This document shows, piece after piece, positions 13,674 to 25,780 of a stretch of 25,802 nt of DNA. The position numbers and the translations under genes were made by a program. The stretch covers positions 1 through 25,802 of IMG/VR virus record IMGVR_UViG_3300028399_000027. One strand, written 5' to 3'. A model generated the notes under the pieces. It was given only the letters and a program-made list of their open reading frames with translations. It was not told the origin of the DNA and did not search any database. The DNA is from a virus. How positions within the stretch are numbered: the stretch's first letter is position 1; each line of letters starts with the position of its first letter.

Positions 13674-14572
13674 CAGTAATAATCCACCACCCTGCACTGA
13701 AGGTTATCAAGATTCATCCCATCGACTTCCCTCATCTTGAGTTCCTGAAGCATAACCCTGTAGATGGTCCTCTCCTTCAGGTATCTATCGTCATCATCAT
13801 CCTGCAAGACCCGCCAGTAGACACCAGTGATAAATACATTTCTCCACCGCCTGTAGAGAGTACCCATGAGGTTCGAACTCAGGTCAACGAGTGAGAGGTT
13901 GGCATAGTAGCGCATCTGAAGGCCATAGAGCTTATCAGGTGTCGGATACAGTTCGAACTCTCCAGTCTCATCTGAATCAGCCTGAGCCATACCAAGAGGA
14001 AAGTAATGAGTCGGCCTGCTCCTTGCATTCGGATGAGCAATTGCATCCCTCTCTGTGATTCTCAACTGATGCAACGGATACTGTGTATCAACAATCATGT
14101 AGGTCTCTGTACCATCAGGCGTTACAGTAAAATCAGGAGTCACACTTGCAACCTTCGTTGTAGTATTGTATGCAGTTATCTGAGAGCATGCACCAAGCCC
14201 TGTACCAGACGTTATAAGAAGCAGTTTTCCTATTGCAAAGTCCTCTGAAACATCCTCGTTTGCATCCAATGTTGCAGACGATGAAGTTGCCGCCTGAAGT
14301 GTGCCTGTATGGTCCCCTGTCAGGATCGTAAGGGTAAGGTCACGCTCAAAGTCAACAGGGTTTGCATACCTCGATATGCCTTTCGTGGTGACCCCGTAGC
14401 TGGTATATATCAACGACTTCCACTTCTTTGAAGTCGTCCATATGTCATGTTTGACTTCTTCGAGCCAGTCCTTTGCTCTCGATATCTTGGCGGCTGACGG
14501 ATTAGAGTAGCCAGCTCGCTTAAGGGCCTCTGTAACGATGCTGTCAGACGTCGGCTGTGTTGGTACTGCCAT
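13673..14572 (-). CDS. head-tail adaptor (SU10 adaptor / P22 gp4-like)
   Basis: A 299-residue protein with GAGGAGGT upstream of ATG 14572. The helical N-terminus (IVTEALKRAGYSNPSAAKISRAKDWLEEVKHDIWTTSKKWKSL), followed by a YANPVDFERDL strand, is the usual pattern of adaptors that bind under the portal. Residues about 80-160 are a beta insert with SATLDANEDVSEDFAIGKLLLITSGTGLGACSQITAY and DFTVTPDGTETYMI, a module spread through many phage virion proteins. The C-terminal helices (YRRWRNVFITGVYWRVLQDDDDDRYLKERTIYRVMLQEL) would contact the portal. It overlaps the glycosyltransferase gene by 29 bases. Confidence 0.72.
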   Translation of the reverse strand: MAVPTQPTSDSIVTEALKRAGYSNPSAAKISRAKDWLEEVKHDIWTTSKKWKSLIYTSYGVTTKGISRYANPVDFERDLTLTILTGDHTGTLQAATSSSATLDANEDVSEDFAIGKLLLITSGTGLGACSQITAYNTTTKVASVTPDFTVTPDGTETYMIVDTQYPLHQLRITERDAIAHPNARSRPTHYFPLGMAQADSDETGEFELYPTPDKLYGLQMRYYANLSLVDLSSNLMGTLYRRWRNVFITGVYWRVLQDDDDDRYLKERTIYRVMLQELKMREVDGMNLDNLQCRVVDYY

Positions 14573-15668
14573 TCAGGACCTCCTCAAGTGAAAACTTCCA
14601 TAACCGCCAATTCTTGTTGATATCGAAATTGGCCTCAACGTCCTTCCTTGCCTTTGCACCTATGGATTTTCTCAAGATACTCGATTCTATCATTTCAGAC
14701 ATACCGCTGAACCATGCAGATTCGTCATTGTCTTCAATCATTATTGCATTCTCTCCGGTATAGACCTCACGGTAAGGACTGACCAGCGACATCACGCAGG
14801 GAACCTCCATTGCAGACATCTCTATCCACTTGATCGGAGATTTGCATCTGTTGAAATCATTATCCACCAACGGTATTACTGCAAAGTCGAGATTCATCAT
14901 CATTGCCTCATAATGATATCTTTCGATGTTGACCCATGGATGAATCTCAACCCTGTCTTCAGGCAAATCCTTGATGAATCCCTTGAATGCCTGGCCGAAA
15001 ACAACGAACCTCGTATTTTCGTATGCCTCCATTATCAATCTTACAGGCTCTTTGATAATCATGAGGTCCTCGTAGTGGCTGCTTCCACCAAACCACCCGA
15101 ATCTCACTTCTTCTGTTCTCTGAAACGGCAAGGCTTTCCACATGTTTACATCTATTGAATTAGGGAGAACATAGACATTGCCATTGTATTCCCTGTAGAT
15201 ATCAGCAAGAATATCTGTTGTTACAGTTACAGCGTCTGCAATCTCAAGGGTCCTTTTGAAGTAATTCATGCGCTCGACATTCTTCTTTATGTCTATGTTT
15301 TTTCCATCTTCCCACAATTTCATTTTGCTGCCGTCCTTGAGTGCTACAACAACCTCTTTCGTGCCAAGATGAGCATAATGATTCGAAAATGGAGACACAT
15401 CGAAAAGGTTGTCGTCAAACTCAACTACAATACGCTTGCCCTCTTTCTTCATCTCGTTTATCAGTATGTGAAAGTTAGGTTCTCCGGGCCGAGGAACAAC
15501 GACAACATCAGAATCTTCAAGCATCGAGGCAAGTTCATTAATTCCAATGCCCTGCTTTGCAAAGTCGACTATGACGAAAGGATCATTCATAGCCCAGACA
15601 GAATAAGGCAGAGTAACCCGGTAGTATCCACAAGGGCCGTCGTCTCTTACAAAAGCTGTAATCTTCAT
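14544..15668 (-). CDS. glycosyltransferase, GT4-type (group 1)
   Basis: A 374-residue GT-B-fold enzyme expected to transfer a sugar from a nucleotide-sugar donor. The N-terminus MKITAFVRDDGPCGYYRV and the VEFDDNLF motif (82-89) occur in phage-borne group 1 glycosyltransferases. The second Rossmann domain has RFGWFGGSSHYEDL (189-202) and the EX7E-like donor site CKSPIKWIEMSAMEVP (275-290). There is no membrane segment or signal peptide, so it acts in the cytoplasm. It overlaps the RmlA-like gene (ATGA) and the adaptor gene, and is therefore expressed with head genes. Acceptor unknown: a virion protein or host glycan. Confidence 0.78.
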   Translation of the reverse strand: MKITAFVRDDGPCGYYRVTLPYSVWAMNDPFVIVDFAKQGIGINELASMLEDSDVVVVPRPGEPNFHILINEMKKEGKRIVVEFDDNLFDVSPFSNHYAHLGTKEVVVALKDGSKMKLWEDGKNIDIKKNVERMNYFKRTLEIADAVTVTTDILADIYREYNGNVYVLPNSIDVNMWKALPFQRTEEVRFGWFGGSSHYEDLMIIKEPVRLIMEAYENTRFVVFGQAFKGFIKDLPEDRVEIHPWVNIERYHYEAMMMNLDFAVIPLVDNDFNRCKSPIKWIEMSAMEVPCVMSLVSPYREVYTGENAIMIEDNDESAWFSGMSEMIESSILRKSIGAKARKDVEANFDINKNWRLWKFSLEEVLNGSTNTADV

Positions 15669-16390
15669 ATAAGCATCCTTTCATTTATGCTGTTTTTCAC
15701 CAGCAAAGAAGCTTCGAGTAATCCATCAAACGTACCAGCGTCAACCCATGCTCCTTTTATTTCTTTGTGCCTCAGCTCTCCGTTTTTTGCATACTTGTTT
15801 ATGACATCAACTATCTCGTATTCACTGCGCCTCGACTTTGTTATCGTCTTTGCAAACTTGACAGCCTTGTTGTCGAACACGTACAACCCTGTAACTGCAT
15901 ACTCAGACGGTGGAATATCAGGCTTTTCAATCACGCATCTTATTCTTCCATCGTTATCAAATACAGGAACTCCATACCTTGCAGGATCGTCGACCTTCTT
16001 CACGAAAATCTTTGCTCCTGATTCAAACCCTGAAATATGACTCGACAGGTCATCCTCGAAAATATTGTCTCCAAGTGCAAGAGTAAAGTTATCATCTCCA
16101 ATAAACGAGGAACTTATCATGATTCCATGCGCTATACCTTCAGGTCTTTCCTGTATTTCATAAAACAGCCTTACTCCGAACTTCATACCACTTCCAAGCA
16201 GGTTGAGGTAATCACCTGCATTGTATCTTGATACTATTATGAGAATATCCTTTATTCCAGCCCTAATAAGTGTATCAAGTGGATAATATATCATTGGCCG
16301 GTTGTAAACAGGCAGCAATTGCTTACTCGTCACGGCAGTGCAAGGCATCAGCCTTGTAGCAAGACCTCCTGACAGTATTATCCCCTTCAT
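15665..16390 (-). CDS. glucose-1-phosphate thymidylyltransferase-like (RmlA family)
   Basis: A 241-residue nucleotidyltransferase that would make a dTDP-sugar from sugar-1-phosphate and dTTP. The pyrophosphorylase signature lies at residues 8-32 (GGLATRL, then SKQLLPVYNRP) with Arg13 and Lys23 present. The usual GxGTRL is changed to GLATRL, as in some variants. EIQERPEGIAHG (78-89), the metal-binding LGDNIF (106-111), VTGLYVFD and WVDAGTFDGLLEAS all match RmlA. It ends about 45 residues earlier than Escherichia coli RmlA, lacking the last helices. It sits in an ATGA-coupled run with a glycosyltransferase, and rmlB is encoded divergently at 24806. The exact sugar substrate is not certain. Confidence 0.82.
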   Translation of the reverse strand: MKGIILSGGLATRLMPCTAVTSKQLLPVYNRPMIYYPLDTLIRAGIKDILIIVSRYNAGDYLNLLGSGMKFGVRLFYEIQERPEGIAHGIMISSSFIGDDNFTLALGDNIFEDDLSSHISGFESGAKIFVKKVDDPARYGVPVFDNDGRIRCVIEKPDIPPSEYAVTGLYVFDNKAVKFAKTITKSRRSEYEIVDVINKYAKNGELRHKEIKGAWVDAGTFDGLLEASLLVKNSINERMLI

Positions 16391-16626
16391 ATGGAAACCT
16401 TCCCCTTAAGTGCCTTGAACATCTTCATATCCTTCTTCAGTTCGTCGATCTGCTCCTTGAGTGCTTTGTAGGAGTTACCATTGCTTTTGCCCTTCAGTCT
16501 TTCAACCGGCTTGTGCTTACCTTTGAAGAAGACCAGGCCGCACTCAATGCATACTATGAAATCGGTAAGCGGATACATGAGTTCGGCCTTGTCTGAACCA
16601 CAGAAACATCCAAATTCGTTATCCAT
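16387..16626 (-). CDS. small zinc-ribbon/coiled-coil protein
   Basis: A 79-residue protein with AAAGGGGTG upstream of ATG 16626. CFCGSDKAELMYPLTDF followed by CIECGLVFF gives a CxC...CxxC zinc-ribbon-like pattern at residues 7-29. The second half is a Lys/Glu coiled coil (SYKALKEQIDELKKDMKMFKALKGK). It overlaps the RmlA-like gene (ATGA) and follows the sulfotransferase-like gene. It may be an adapter for the neighbouring enzymes or an unrelated small regulator. No function assigned. Confidence 0.6.
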   Translation of the reverse strand: MDNEFGCFCGSDKAELMYPLTDFIVCIECGLVFFKGKHKPVERLKGKSNGNSYKALKEQIDELKKDMKMFKALKGKVSI

Positions 16627-16640
16627 ACTTGAACACCCCT

Positions 16641-17162
16641 TTAATCGTACTTGTAGCCAAGGTATATCATGAAATCAAACAGCCTCCTGTTGTATTCCCT
16701 GGCAATGGATATTCCCCTGTTGAGTTCTACCCCGTAATGCTCATATAGAGATTCTGCAACCTCTATGGGCTTTCTCATACATATGACGAAAAACGGATCT
16801 TCGAGGTATTCCATGTAGCACTTTATCGTCAGGACGGTCCGCGGGTCCTTCCATCCCCATTTAGGCTTGACTGCAGATTCTATGGTCCGTTTTATCTCTT
16901 CTGAAAGCTTTTTTCCGGCCCTGATGATATCTTCTTCAGGCGGAGGACTCCACCACGAACCACCGGCCTCTTTCAGGATCATCTCGTTGAGATTATAGAA
17001 TCTTACATCCTCGTAATGACCGCCGTTGTTCTCTGCATTATTGAACAAGAAATCATCACCCATGGAGACACCTTCCTTGTGAAGGCTTCTCGCCACGAGG
17101 CTTGTTGCACTTCTGTGCATGCCAAGCACTATAATTGGGCTTTTGCTGAAGTCAGTCTTCAT
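16641..17162 (-). CDS. sulfotransferase-like protein
   Basis: A 173-residue P-loop protein. GMHRSATSLVARSLHKEGV (14-32) matches the 5'-phosphosulfate-binding loop of PAPS-dependent sulfotransferases. GWKDPRTVL (103-111) and FFVICMRKPIEVAESL (124-139) match the distal PAPS-binding region, including the Arg in the RxP motif. It is shorter than typical enzymes (250-300 residues), so activity is uncertain, although all the nucleotide-binding elements are present. It is coupled by ATGA to the preceding gene and shares the cassette with the glycosyltransferase and RmlA-like genes. The acceptor could be a sugar or a protein tyrosine. Confidence 0.7.
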   Translation of the reverse strand: MKTDFSKSPIIVLGMHRSATSLVARSLHKEGVSMGDDFLFNNAENNGGHYEDVRFYNLNEMILKEAGGSWWSPPPEEDIIRAGKKLSEEIKRTIESAVKPKWGWKDPRTVLTIKCYMEYLEDPFFVICMRKPIEVAESLYEHYGVELNRGISIAREYNRRLFDFMIYLGYKYD

Positions 17163-21518: not shown

Positions 21519-23109
21519 CTACCACCTCGTCGATCATGAGGGCCTCCGGAGCCTCCAAATCCTCCGGATACCAGTTAATAGGAAACTGAAATATATACCT
21601 CAGTGCAGCATGCAGGTGGTGCCTTCCCTCAGCTATCCTGTCCTTTTTGCCCTTGAGGTCCTCGTTCGAATAAGTATCCCGCTGCAGGGTCTGAAAACTC
21701 CTTATCAGGGCCTTGTTTTCAGGCCTGTTCACTATGAAAAACCGCCCGGCCTTCAGCAGCTTCTTTATCTCGTCGACTCCTGCCTTTATAGACCCCTCAT
21801 ACTTTATCGAGGTCCTCAAACCAGGCAATGCATTATCTCCCATCTTCAGTTCCCTGAAAATATTCCGACCTCCAAACGCTATTATATTCGAATCTGCACT
21901 CTTGTCAGCAACTCCCCATCCTACACGATACCCGGCCTCACTCACTATGTCGTGAAAATCCTGCTTCAGCTCATCAGTAGAGACAAGCCTGAAATAACAC
22001 CTGTCAACATAAAAATTCAGCTCCCTGTCCACCAGCACAAACACGAGCGCAGCCTCTGTAACAGTATGCGGGTCACAGCCGTACAGACACAGATAATCAG
22101 CCTTCTCAGCCGGGTTCAATTTCTCGAAAAACGGCTCTATAACGTGCACCTTCCTGTCAAAAGCCTTACCGTACACCAGCCCACTCAACGAGACAAACTC
22201 ACCAAGCAGTCTCATCTTCAACTCCTCATAGTCCGTTATCTCGTCAAGTATCGCCTCCAGTACATCGAGATTCGCCTTTGGGTTGTTTATCGAGCACAGC
22301 TTGTAAAGATGCGTCCTGTCCGCCCCGTCTCCCTCGAACAAATCAGCAGTCCACGTTATCCCCTTCGTCGGTGTAAAGCAGAAATCCATGTCCAGACTGT
22401 CACTCGTCGTGAACCTCAACAAATTCTCCCTGTATATATCTTCCCTCGGCTCCTCGTCAAAAACCACCCAGTCCAGCGGAGGCCCCTGAAACGTGTCCAC
22501 GTCCATCTTGTTCGTCATAAACTCTATCTGGGCACACGCCTTCCCTCCCCTCCACAACGTCAGCCTGTTATGCTGAGCGCTGAAACTGTCGCTCCACCTC
22601 CCATTCTTCAAATACTTCCTCGGCGCCCACCTCTGCCACGCCGGCAACACCGTGTTGTGCAGCTGCTTGAAGTCAACTCCTACAACCCTCCCCCTTATGA
22701 ACTTCTTCCGCGCCCTCTCTATGTCCATCCTGTATAACTCCTCATACTCGCTCAAAGCTTCCGGTAACTCCCCTACACTCCTTATATATCCCCTTATCGC
22801 CCCAAATACGCTCTTCCCGCTCTGGTTACCTCCACTTACCCCAACTATCCCCCTCGGCTGCTTGAATGCGTCCGCCTGCCCGTCCACCTTCTCAGGTATG
22901 TCCTCAGGCTTCAAATACCTCTCCAGAAACTCCCTCTCACGCTCCCCTATCTCTCCCCTCGTCGGTTCAAACCACCAATATGGATCGTCCCCCTCCATCT
23001 GCTCTATACGCCCCTCTATCTCCCTTATTACCGCCTCAAGCTCATCTTCGCTCATCCCCTTGAATATCTTCTTCGTGTAATCCCTGCTGTATGCCTCTCG
23101 CTTCCTCAA
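21511..23109 (-). CDS. terL: terminase large subunit
   Basis: A 532-residue packaging motor. Walker A is GGNQSGKS (93-100). Walker B is WVVFDEE (214-220) with its catalytic Glu, and the coupling motif is FTPTKG (245-250). The nuclease half begins with YLCLYGCDPHTV (Asp346), then VADKSADSN (Asp402 region). The third acidic position, normally within a DHxxDAxRY motif, reads GRHHLHAALRY (495-505), so one expected Asp is replaced by His. The likely start is TTG 23109, with AAGGGG shortly upstream; no nearby ATG has a better site. Plus-strand sequence here is strikingly pyrimidine-rich, so the mRNA is purine-loaded. Confidence 0.88.
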   Translation of the reverse strand: MRKREAYSRDYTKKIFKGMSEDELEAVIREIEGRIEQMEGDDPYWWFEPTRGEIGEREREFLERYLKPEDIPEKVDGQADAFKQPRGIVGVSGGNQSGKSVFGAIRGYIRSVGELPEALSEYEELYRMDIERARKKFIRGRVVGVDFKQLHNTVLPAWQRWAPRKYLKNGRWSDSFSAQHNRLTLWRGGKACAQIEFMTNKMDVDTFQGPPLDWVVFDEEPREDIYRENLLRFTTSDSLDMDFCFTPTKGITWTADLFEGDGADRTHLYKLCSINNPKANLDVLEAILDEITDYEELKMRLLGEFVSLSGLVYGKAFDRKVHVIEPFFEKLNPAEKADYLCLYGCDPHTVTEAALVFVLVDRELNFYVDRCYFRLVSTDELKQDFHDIVSEAGYRVGWGVADKSADSNIIAFGGRNIFRELKMGDNALPGLRTSIKYEGSIKAGVDEIKKLLKAGRFFIVNRPENKALIRSFQTLQRDTYSNEDLKGKKDRIAEGRHHLHAALRYIFQFPINWYPEDLEAPEALMIDEVVVG

Positions 23110-23178
23110 CTTCAGCCCCTTTTGTCTCCTCCCCTTAAATGGAGGGTAGTAACTTTATAGGTATATTTATTTTCATCC

Positions 23179-23196
23179 CGGGGGTCCCCACCCCCG
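23179..23196. other. GC-rich hairpin next to the palindrome array
   Basis: Arms CGGGGGT (23179-23185) and ACCCCCG (23190-23196) pair perfectly around a CCCC loop. On the minus strand it is followed by GGATGAAAATAAATATACC, not a U-run, so a strong intrinsic terminator before terL is unlikely. The last two bases overlap the first CGTCAA half-site. Confidence 0.5.
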
Positions 23197-23300
23197 TCAA
23201 GATTTTGACTCATTTCGTCAATGTTTTGACGTTATGACCTTGACGCCTGAGCACCTCCCGTCAATTCCATGACGTAGGCAATGGTTGCCGTCATAACGTC
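23195..23300. repeat. array of CGTCAA-N4-TTGACG palindromes (candidate pac/operator site)
   Basis: Half-site CGTCA[A/T] or its complement occurs at 23195, 23205 (last base changed), 23216, 23226, 23234 (imperfect), 23240, 23259, 23269 and 23289. Three 16-base palindromes with a six-four-six layout stand at 23195-23210, 23216-23231 (perfect, CGTCAA-TGTT-TTGACG) and 23259-23274 (one mismatch). The first two start 21 bases apart and the next 43 bases further, close to two and four helical turns, so a protein binding there would face one side of the DNA. Position between the two terminase genes fits a packaging-recognition or late-operator site. Arrangement seen; function inferred. Confidence 0.6.
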
Positions 23301-23435
23301 CGATAATATCAATTATGGTAAAGTTCCCTTTCCTGCAAGTCCTTGATTTTCCATGGTTTTTCCGATCCAACCACCTCGGCACTGTCCTGTCCCTATTTGC
23401 CGTCGTTTCTGGGCCTCTTGTGGGGGGGATCCTGG

Positions 23436-23984
23436 TCATTTTCTCCCACCTTTTTTCTCTTCCAGGACCTGCCGTGCGATTTTCAGCATCTCCCGCGAGT
23501 CCCTGATGACCGTATGAGTGTCGATATTCTGCGTACTTTGGCCTCGTTCCAGGCGCTCCTTGTCATAGAGCACCGCGAAGCACCATATCCTGTCCCGGGG
23601 CGCCATTTTTTTGACGGTGCTCTCATCGATGGCGTCAAGGAGCATCCGCTGCTTCGCCGCGAGGATATCAGCGCGATTTTTCCGCCATTTCGGGAGCCCT
23701 TCGCCGCCGAGGTTCGTAAGACGACGGGTGACGGTTTCGCGCCGTATTCCGAGCTTTTCGGCGATTTCGCGGTGTGTGAGGTTCAGCGCGGCGAGCTCGA
23801 GGAGCTCCTCGTCACCGACTTTCTTGTGCCGGCGCCGGTATGCGGTGGGAGTGGTGGTGCTGGTGTCCTTCGGGTGGGAGGATGTGTTCACTTTTTCGGT
23901 CTGTGGCAGGTCTGAGTAGGAGAGATTCGTGTTTTTTTCTTCCACTTGGTGCTGTTTTCCTGTCTCGTTCGGTGCATTCGGCAT
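23436..23984 (-). CDS. terminase small subunit candidate (HTH protein)
   Basis: A 182-residue protein located one gene before terL. The first 50 residues are Asn/Thr/Ser-rich and look disordered. A helix-turn-helix lies at 69-90 (LTHREIAEKLGIRRETVTRRL), followed by helical sequence (KNRADILAAKQRMLLDAID, then RDRIWCFAVLYDKERLERGQ) and a basic C-terminus. An N-terminal HTH followed by an oligomerising helical region is the common plan of small terminases, which choose the packaging site. The alternative is a late-gene activator. Weak upstream signal: GGTGG ten bases before ATG 23984. DNA is more GC-rich than the rest of the late operon. Confidence 0.6.
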   Translation of the reverse strand: MPNAPNETGKQHQVEEKNTNLSYSDLPQTEKVNTSSHPKDTSTTTPTAYRRRHKKVGDEELLELAALNLTHREIAEKLGIRRETVTRRLTNLGGEGLPKWRKNRADILAAKQRMLLDAIDESTVKKMAPRDRIWCFAVLYDKERLERGQSTQNIDTHTVIRDSREMLKIARQVLEEKKGGRK

Positions 23985-24096
23985 GTCTTTTTTCCACCCT
24001 TCGGGTCATCCTTCCGGGAAATTTCGGTATATATATATGTGAAATTGGGACATTTTTGGACGGTTGGGGGGCGATTTTTTCTTTTTTTTCAAGGGG

Positions 24097-24459
24097 TTAG
24101 GACGTTTCGGGGAGCGGACATCTCCGGATCAGGCGGCGGAGATGACGGGGGGAGAGGTGGAGTAGTTCGGCGATGGTGGAGAGAGGGATATCGGCGAGGA
24201 GACAGGCGGCGATGGCGCGGAGACGGAGGTCCTCGATCTCCCGGAGCCGCTCCGCGTATTCGGCCGTCGAACGCTTCGCGGCAATCACCTCCGCAATCAC
24301 TTCCGTGTACGGCCTCGTCGGGCGCTCTCTCGTGAGCCTGAGCTCGCCCAGGAGCCGCTCGCGCAGCCTGTAGGAGCCGTCTGCGGCCTCGGCCACGAAC
24401 CGGCACGGTACGCGGCACTCCCTAAGTTTCCGGCATCCACGACATACGGACCGCCCCAT
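24097..24459 (-). CDS. HTH regulator with N-terminal cysteine cluster
   Basis: A 120-residue basic protein. The N-terminus MGRSVCRGCRKLRECRVPCRF carries four cysteines in a CxxC...C...C pattern that could bind zinc or an Fe-S cluster. The middle is helical and Arg/Glu-rich. The C-terminus IPLSTIAELLHLSPRHLRRLIRRC is a clear helix-turn-helix, similar to sigma-region-4 types. As the first gene of the minus-strand block, just before the terminases, it occupies the place of late-gene activators in many phages. The start codon is fixed by an in-frame stop seven bases upstream. Its promoter would place transcription start at or near the ATG. Family not named with confidence. Confidence 0.6.
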   Translation of the reverse strand: MGRSVCRGCRKLRECRVPCRFVAEAADGSYRLRERLLGELRLTRERPTRPYTEVIAEVIAAKRSTAEYAERLREIEDLRLRAIAACLLADIPLSTIAELLHLSPRHLRRLIRRCPLPETS

Positions 24460-24464
24460 ACCAT

Positions 24465-24494
24465 ATCATACCTCATTTTTTTGTGCTTATGCAA
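24465..24494 (-). promoter_or_regulatory. putative sigma70-type promoter of the HTH regulator
   Basis: On the minus strand TTGCAT (24494-24489) and TATGAT (24470-24465) are separated by 18 bases. The start ATG at 24459 is six bases beyond the -10 box, so the transcript would be leaderless or almost so. There is only a weak, poorly spaced GAGG upstream, consistent with that. Confidence 0.4.
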
Positions 24495-24569
24495 GTTACG
24501 TGCCACTAATTTTTTTCGAAAATGCTTATTTTTCAATACCTTACGGCTTCATTTTTTTTCATTTTTTTC

Positions 24570-24598
24570 TTGACTTTCGGGAAAAAATGTGCCACAAT
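24570..24598 (+). promoter_or_regulatory. sigma70-type promoter, plus strand
   Basis: TTGACT (24570-24575), a 17-base spacer, and CACAAT (24593-24598). The -35 box is near consensus and the spacing is ideal; the -10 box is weaker. It points toward the terminator at 24641-24677 and rmlB at 24806, and is divergent from the regulator promoter. Confidence 0.55.
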
Positions 24599-24604
24599 AG
24601 AGGT

Positions 24605-24677
24605 ATGAAAAAGCAGAACGAACACAGACCTGACGAAAAAGGGGCGGCGCTCCCGCGGAGGAGTGCGCCCCTTTTTT
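24605..24677 (+). ncRNA. predicted short terminated transcript (small RNA or attenuated leader)
   Basis: From the expected start about seven bases after the -10 box to the U-run of the intrinsic terminator is roughly 73 bases. It could be a small RNA, or a leader that attenuates rmlB. An ATG at 24605 opens a 41-codon frame to 24730 but it has no usable ribosome binding site and runs through the terminator, so I do not call it a gene. Confidence 0.35.
24641..24677 (+). terminator. intrinsic terminator
   Basis: GGGGCG(G)CGCTCC pairs with GGAGTGCGCCCC (12 pairs, one bulged G and one G-U), loop CGCGGA, then a T6 run. An A-run precedes the stem, so it could also work on the other strand. Confidence 0.8.
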
Positions 24678-24694
24678 CTTTTCCCGCGACCGCA

Positions 24695-24769
24695 AGCCCC
24701 GACAGAGCTGCCTTCGGCAGTTCGGGCTAAGCCCTCCCCTCTCCTTCTGTCTCTCTCAGGAGAGAGGGG
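24695..24769 (+). other. two further hairpins in the rmlB leader
   Basis: Hairpin A: AGCCC (24695-24699) with GGGCT (24724-24728), enclosing an inner stem of about eight pairs centred on CTGCC-TTC-GGCAG (24708-24720). Hairpin B: CCCCTCTC (24736-24743) with GAGAGGGG (24762-24769). With the terminator they fill the leader between the promoter and the rmlB ribosome binding site. No known riboswitch consensus was recognised. Confidence 0.45.
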
Positions 24770-24805
24770 TAGGAGGAAAGATTGATTTTCATGAAAGGAG
24801 GACAT

Positions 24806-25780
24806 ATGAAAATACTCGTAACGGGCGGAGCAGGCTTCATAGGCTCCAACTTCATAAGACACATCCTGAGGAGATATCCCGGCTATCACGTCGTAAACCT
24901 CGACGCGCTCACCTACGCGGGCAACAGGGAGAACCTGCGGGATGTTGAGGCAGAGCCGAGATACCGCTTCATCCACGGCGACATAAGAGACGCTGAAACC
25001 GTTCTCGATGCATTGAAGGACATCGACATCGTCGTGAACTTCGCCGCTGAAACCCACGTCGACCGCTCCATCGCGGACCCTCAGCCGTTCCTCGCAACCA
25101 ACGTCATCGGCCTCCAGGTGCTCCTCAATTGCGTCCGCAACAGGAGTGTCCGCTTCATCCATATTTCCACCGACGAGGTATACGGAAGCCTCGCAGCAGA
25201 CGAAGGCGCCTTCACCGAGGAGTCACCTCTTCGGCCAAGCTCTCCTTACTCCGCTTCGAAGGCCGCAGGAGACCTCATGGCACACGCCTATATGACGACC
25301 TTCGGCTTCCCCACCGTAATCGTAAGGCTTTCGAACGTCTACGGGCCCTTCCAGCATCCTGAAAAGTTCATCCCCAAGGTGATCACGAACCTGCTCAATA
25401 TGGTTCGTGTCCCCGTATACGGGGATGGCACCAATGTCAGGCAATGGCTCTTCGTCGAAGATGCATGTACCGCAATTGACACGGTCATGCACCGCGGAAT
25501 ACCGGGCGAGATATACAATGCAGGCGGTGGAAGCGAGAAGAGAAACATCGACGTGGTAAGAGATGTCCTGTCACTGATGGGCCTGCCAGGGGAGTATTTT
25601 GAGCTCGTCCCTGACAGACCTGGACACGACTACCGCTACGCGATCGACTCCTCCAAGATCAAAAGCGCTTTCGGCTGGACTCCAAATGTAGACTTCACCA
25701 CAGGATTGGAGAAAACCATCCTGTGGTATTGCAAGGAGGTGATAGGGGGATGGCTCTCCGAAGAACGAAAGCGGAACTGA
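24806..25780 (+). CDS. rfbB: dTDP-glucose 4,6-dehydratase
   Basis: A 324-residue short-chain dehydrogenase/reductase of the extended type. It converts dTDP-glucose to dTDP-4-keto-6-deoxyglucose, the second step of dTDP-rhamnose and related sugars. The NAD-binding motif is GGAGFIGSN (7-15). The catalytic set is Thr122-Asp123-Glu124 in STDEVYG and Tyr148/Lys152 in YSASK. THVDRSI, NVYGP, PVYGDGxNVRQWLFVEDAC and the RPGHDYRYAIDxSK motif all fit RmlB rather than generic epimerases. ATG 24806 has AAAGGAGG immediately upstream. This gene is either host DNA flanking a prophage or a phage-carried sugar gene; the phage RmlA-like gene at 15665 would supply its substrate. Confidence 0.87.
   Translation: MKILVTGGAGFIGSNFIRHILRRYPGYHVVNLDALTYAGNRENLRDVEAEPRYRFIHGDIRDAETVLDALKDIDIVVNFAAETHVDRSIADPQPFLATNVIGLQVLLNCVRNRSVRFIHISTDEVYGSLAADEGAFTEESPLRPSSPYSASKAAGDLMAHAYMTTFGFPTVIVRLSNVYGPFQHPEKFIPKVITNLLNMVRVPVYGDGTNVRQWLFVEDACTAIDTVMHRGIPGEIYNAGGGSEKRNIDVVRDVLSLMGLPGEYFELVPDRPGHDYRYAIDSSKIKSAFGWTPNVDFTTGLEKTILWYCKEVIGGWLSEERKRN

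Follow-up and report, generated by a model that had tools for sequence, protein, structure and literature searches.

The window, a 25,802-base IMG/VR virus record classed as linear, carries a dense array of CGTCA[A/T] half-sites in front of its terminase large subunit gene (terL), and on balance this array is best regarded as a regulatory binding region of terL and the late operon. The same site stands before the packaging genes in many environmental phages that are unrelated to each other, and hence is probably a switch for late-gene control. To our knowledge, only a handful of model phages have had the control of their late genes and packaging worked out. A palindrome found again and again upstream of terL in dozens of unrelated uncultivated phages provides a searchable handle on the late promoters of viral dark matter, and it suggests a regulator that the homology searches performed here did not expose.

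The late genes of the window lie on the minus strand, in the order Cys-cluster helix-turn-helix (HTH) protein, HTH protein, noncoding gap, terL, SU10-type portal and, further on, SU10-type capsid. terL, which starts with TTG 85 nt from the array, is the first gene of the late block and is followed by portal, scaffold-like and capsid genes. The original prediction placed 326 noncoding bases between two terminase genes. The gap does measure 326 nt (23110-23435); the small-terminase (TerS) identity of the HTH gene next to it rests on a weak match to phrog_141. The genes and the array are as follows.

24097..24459, minus strand: Cys-cluster HTH protein, the second candidate regulator (HTH_23, E 1e-4, below cut-off)
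23436..23984, minus strand: HTH protein adjoining the array (HTH_Crp_2, E 6.8e-8; phrog_323 D5-like, E 5.6e-6; phrog_141 TerS, E 6e-4)
23195..23300, no strand: array of CGTCA[A/T] half-sites forming GTCA-N6-TGAC palindromes (seven exact half-sites in 106 nt, and recurrence in phage loci)
21511..23109, minus strand: terL (phrog_2 terminase large subunit, E 2.4e-16; PF17288, E 7e-4, below cut-off)

Of the 78 exact copies of CGTCA/TGACG in the 25.8 kb, seven fall between 23195 and 23293, and all seven have the form CGTCA[A/T]. Two or three further half-sites have one mismatch (e.g. TTGACT at 23205 and ATGACC at 23233), in agreement with the nine or so that had been predicted. The densest 106 nt of the window hold seven CGTCAW half-sites, where 300 dinucleotide shuffles of the window gave at most three, and CGTCAW-N4-WTGACG with up to two mismatches is found 11 times against 3.1 expected. 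An origin of the array by chance is excluded. The half-sites pair into the following dyads and repeats.

23195..23210, no strand: dyad 1, CGTCAAGATTTTGACT, one outer mismatch
23216..23231, no strand: dyad 2, CGTCAATGTTTTGACG, a perfect 6-4-6 palindrome
23230..23245, no strand: weaker, overlapping dyad, CGTTATGACCTTGACG
23259..23274, no strand: dyad 3, CGTCAATTCCATGACG, one inner mismatch
23228-23238 and 23290-23300: perfect 11-nt inverted repeat, GACGTTATGAC/GTCATAACGTC, which includes the outermost half-site

The three 6-4-6 palindromes foreseen near multiples of 21 bases are thus present, one perfect and two with a single mismatch. They start at 23195, 23216 and 23259, in steps of 21 and 43 (64 overall) that are 0-1 nt off multiples of 10.5. 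One array is seen in the window, and it matches the core GTCAA-N4-TTGAC.

Two elements lie between the array and terL.

23179..23196: GC hairpin, CGGGGGT-CCCC-ACCCCCG, with no T run after it on either strand
23153..23165, minus strand: A/T-rich -10-like stretch, TATACCTATAAAG, without a consensus -35

Of 63 loci, 29 have G/C runs of five or more close to an array, where random windows give 16.7. Such runs accompany, for example, the arrays of L118, L026, L164 and L176, and some form hairpins. The -10-like stretch may belong to a promoter, judging from its composition; a consensus promoter scan of 23000-24800 returned no promoter-like site there, and no consensus -35/-10 at the array. A 73-aa open reading frame (23218-23439, minus strand), whose start overlaps the HTH gene in an ATGA, ends inside the array, and its GC content by codon position is not coding-like.

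Elsewhere, the window carries sugar genes (regions 14544-17162 and 24782-25780), namely a glycosyltransferase-like gene (14544-15668), a short rmlA-type nucleotidyltransferase of 241 aa that falls below the rmlA cut-off (15665-16390), and a complete, divergent rmlB (TIGR01181, E 4.5e-130). Ahead of rmlB, at 24570-24690, a sigma70 promoter-like TTGACT-17-CACAAT is followed by a short frame starting with Met and a GC hairpin with a T run, which together look like a leader or attenuator.

Scans of viral_contigs with TerL, portal, TerS and major capsid protein (MCP), and of genome_contigs with TerL, revealed no close relatives of the window phage, the best capsid relatives being about 35-41% identical. 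Sampled genomes of two phyla held no homologues of the window TerL, and did hold homologues of its putative TerS, in islands. The comparative evidence comes instead from recurrence of the site. The palindrome pair, in the CGTCA[A/T]-type pattern, was found in 23 IMG/VR stretches against two for a permuted palindrome of the same composition, and the core pair GTCAA-N4-TTGAC in at least 119 against 11 for its permuted control; retrieval by pattern may pool the operators of several proteins. The array stretches listed from both patterns make up 59 nucleotide clusters, and their GC spans 0.24 to 0.71. Where records are fully or largely covered, the palindromes are gathered between genes in one or two clusters per record, with 2-21 copies in 23 of 24 records against 0.2-1.3 expected by chance. 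The phage G001 carries a second array, the 21 sites of G051 are scattered, and no palindromes were present in the 40 kb of G053 that were examined. All of these results are computational, the records are often fragments, and several of the group comparisons amount to few independent lineages. Among isolates, HTVC023P, HTVC027P, DSL-LC04, DC33, BPP-1 and CL131 have no exact sites in 15-20 kb around terL.

Two sets of matches appear to be of another kind. Four high-GC records, apparently isolate genomes (L114, L150, L198 and L201), contain GTCAA-N4-TTGAC pairs, extended in three of them to GGTCAA/TTGACC, and probably represent a different operator class. In one Bacteroidales metagenome-assembled genome, many intergenic paired CCGTCAA-N4-TTGACGG palindromes lie on different contigs (L039, L050, L053, L056, L064, L067, L080 and L083), and these copies constitute a chromosomal repeat family.

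The extra copies near the arrays, which were not fixed by the search, give the consensus YGTCAA-W4-N-TG[A/G]CR, a dyad of 5-6-5 geometry in which the centre is A/T-rich and the outer GTCA/TGAC is strongly conserved. Spacings of at least 19 nt cluster near n x 10.5 + 1 (R 0.37, with P between 1.5e-4 and 6e-4 when compared with smoothed nulls), and the window spacings of 21, 43 and 64 agree with this helical clustering; the commonest steps in dense arrays are 14 and 16 nt. Between related phages the sites are kept and the spacers have diverged. Single-base variants are equally common in the left and right arms and often break pairing, which indicates recognition of DNA by protein rather than recognition of RNA and points to a dimeric DNA-binding protein as the likely binder. 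An RNA hairpin element was rejected on the same grounds, as compensatory changes would keep the pairing and the single variants mostly break it. Nor does the site fit IHF or Fis: the IHF site (WATCAA-N4-TTR) leaves the outer positions free, where the unconstrained copies here conserve the outer G/C and are looser at the inner A/T, and the Fis consensus does not match. The comparative data, including phasing in unrelated loci, thereby lend weight to the proposal of a helically phased array that a protein would bind cooperatively.

TerL is the commonest protein at the array loci, in two families of 47 and 15 loci. In 59 of the 66 loci with TerL on the examined stretch, the nearest array is upstream of terL, and in 43 of the 66 it is no more than 3 kb away. 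Against a random-intergenic null that uses a crude ORF caller, and with some of the 27 representatives related to each other, arrays lie up to 3 kb upstream of terL in 17 representatives (9.3 expected, P about 1e-4) and up to 1.5 kb upstream in 12 (5.2 expected). Among 58 bacterial and archaeal genome matches, none had a terL recognisable by the same models on the examined stretch; these cellular matches resemble chromosomal repeats or operators. Closeness to terL is not unique to GTCAA-N4-TTGAC, since three of 11 control loci carry TGACTGA-type palindromes 0.8-2.4 kb upstream of terL. This other array, TGACTGA...TCAGTCA, was seen in L312, L314 and L315. It follows that palindromic arrays before terminase genes are more widespread than this one motif, although GTCAA-N4-TTGAC is by far the commoner of the sequences tested.

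In one group of phages the site coincides with a promoter. The right arm, TTGAC[GA], of the second palindrome in group C (L029, L111, L113 and L159) is the -35 of a conserved promoter into the terminase genes, followed by a 17-nt spacer, TGGTACAAT (degenerate at the -10 in L111), and then a small gene that begins ahead of terL. A protein bound at this site would compete directly with RNA polymerase. Group A has a conserved TATATATATAAAAAGGGTACC element downstream of its arrays. This element is highly conserved on the way from the arrays to terL in L090, L131, L145, L153, L178, L188, L190 and L169, and is perhaps a phage promoter. Divergent sigma70 promoters with TTGACA boxes were discarded as a general explanation of the palindromes, as there is no general -10 at 16-18 nt. 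Given the promoter overlap in group C, the lack of general sigma70 overlap, and only a -10-like stretch in the window, the array is most simply a regulatory region of terL and the late operon.

The computed support for a regulatory array consists of clustering, repeated occurrence at terminase operons in phages that are unrelated, spacing that follows the helix, sites more constrained than spacers, and the overlap with a late promoter in one group. The action of the window array on terL transcription, the sign of this effect and what binds there are inferred. In the mechanism that we propose, a dimeric DNA-binding protein would read YGTCA/TGACR half-sites and occupy several palindromes in helical phase, 85-190 nt upstream of terL, and its binding would switch, repress or activate transcription of the packaging and head operon (terL, portal, scaffold-like protein and capsid).

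The window array may be bound by either of the two HTH proteins, the adjacent one (23436-23984) or the Cys-cluster one, or by a host regulator. Structure models of both HTH proteins were of low confidence and uninformative. No shared regulator was found among 24 fully or largely covered array-bearing records, in which no family is as widely common as TerL. As common binders, several families were tried and rejected: the D5-like regulators (phrog_323, which the window HTH protein matches weakly), and with them a T5 D5-type regulon, in only nine of 50 array records; Myb/D5-like small proteins, restricted to few phage groups; CRP-type HTH proteins, in three of 24 records with the window included; and GP88, in three of 24.

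It is possible, though we would put it at rather less than even, that unrelated phages from many environments and with unrelated small terminases have converged on a GTCA-N6-TGAC operator as a cross-lineage code for the terminase and late operon, read by one widely conserved host regulator or one shared horizontally. A narrower case of the regulatory array, which we advance tentatively, is that the palindrome is the site of a conserved host regulator that times late genes in many phages. This would fit a site common to unrelated phages with GC from 0.24 to 0.71 and the lack of a phage-encoded regulator common to them, and there is a precedent in the use of CtrA by Alphaproteobacteria phages (PMC9437464). 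However, the same wide GC range speaks against a single host group, and the open literature searched describes no host regulator with the exact consensus. Text searches of that literature, with subscription journals outside their coverage, likewise yielded no description of the motif.

Sites of the cos and pac types usually lie beside or upstream of terminase genes. The arrays do so as well. Next to a late-gene operator bound by the Cys-cluster regulator, the original prediction offered a packaging recognition site for the HTH protein at 23436-23984. In this rival reading, the array would be a pac or cosB-like site to which a small terminase, possibly this HTH protein, binds so as to start packaging at terL. 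The match of this protein to phrog_141 is weak but long (aa 61-175), and its C-terminal part is conserved in an island homologue; its general HTH matches (HTH_Crp_2 and phrog_323) are better than its TerS match. Small-terminase-like or a regulator by sequence, it could still be a small terminase. Its homologues (L324, 6254-6652; L325, 6137-6577) lie in islands with integrase and primase genes that resemble phage satellites. In L325, however, the homologue directly precedes a separate and clear TerS gene of the phrog_51 type, and no array lies beside it. The palindrome is also common to phages whose TerS proteins differ (phrog_51, 309, 3802, Terminase_2 and Sf6-type) or give no HTH match, G001 and G051 depart from one site per genome with their two arrays and many scattered sites, and in group C the palindrome overlaps a promoter. 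Unrelated neighbouring TerS families and the second arrays of some genomes thus make a packaging site less likely, and we consider it unlikely in the window. Between the two proposals, the late-gene operator is the better supported, for these two reasons and for the -35 overlap of group C.

Least probable is a replication origin with iterons bound by a phage or host initiator: intergenic, A/T-rich dyad clusters do resemble origins, and TTATNCACA, which is like a DnaA box, is denser near arrays (0.098 per kb against 0.038) and stands beside those of L090, L178, L176 and L132, but such boxes are near the array in only 10 loci and absent from the window, the orientation upstream of terL is unexpected for an origin, and the spacing between sites is variable.

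The regulatory array that we favour has partial counterparts among known systems. It shares the TCAA-N4-TTG core with IHF sites (WATCAA-N4-TTR), with the reverse pattern of conservation, as the outer G and C (GTCA/TGAC) are conserved here and the inner A/T is looser. The 5-6-5 geometry and A/T-rich centre recall the CRP/FNR boxes (TGTGA-N6-TCACA), and the neighbouring HTH protein matches HTH_Crp_2; unlike in these boxes, the half-site is TGTCA/CGTCA and not TGTGA, and CRP-type HTH proteins are not common to the other array phages. As in lambda cosB and pac, repeated sites, here of predicted binding, adjoin terS-terL, whereas the arrays span unrelated TerS families, are dyad-symmetric and number more than one in some genomes. 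The P2 Ogr/Delta sites are operator/activator sites of phage late operons. Like them, the arrays are dyads upstream of the late or terminase operon, with the group C site overlapping the -35 box; unlike them, the arrays have several copies, their consensus is GTCA-N6-TGAC, and an Ogr-type activator was not found. CtrA half-sites are of the TTAA type. Clusters of CtrA sites have evolved independently in several phage lineages, and the use of this host factor has been shown experimentally in Alphaproteobacteria phages (PMC9437464). The arrays resemble these clusters in being dense repeats of one factor's site that lie between genes or in promoter regions, in phages with no other relationship, and with high turnover (PMC9437464), and differ from them in having another motif and in concentrating upstream of terminase genes.
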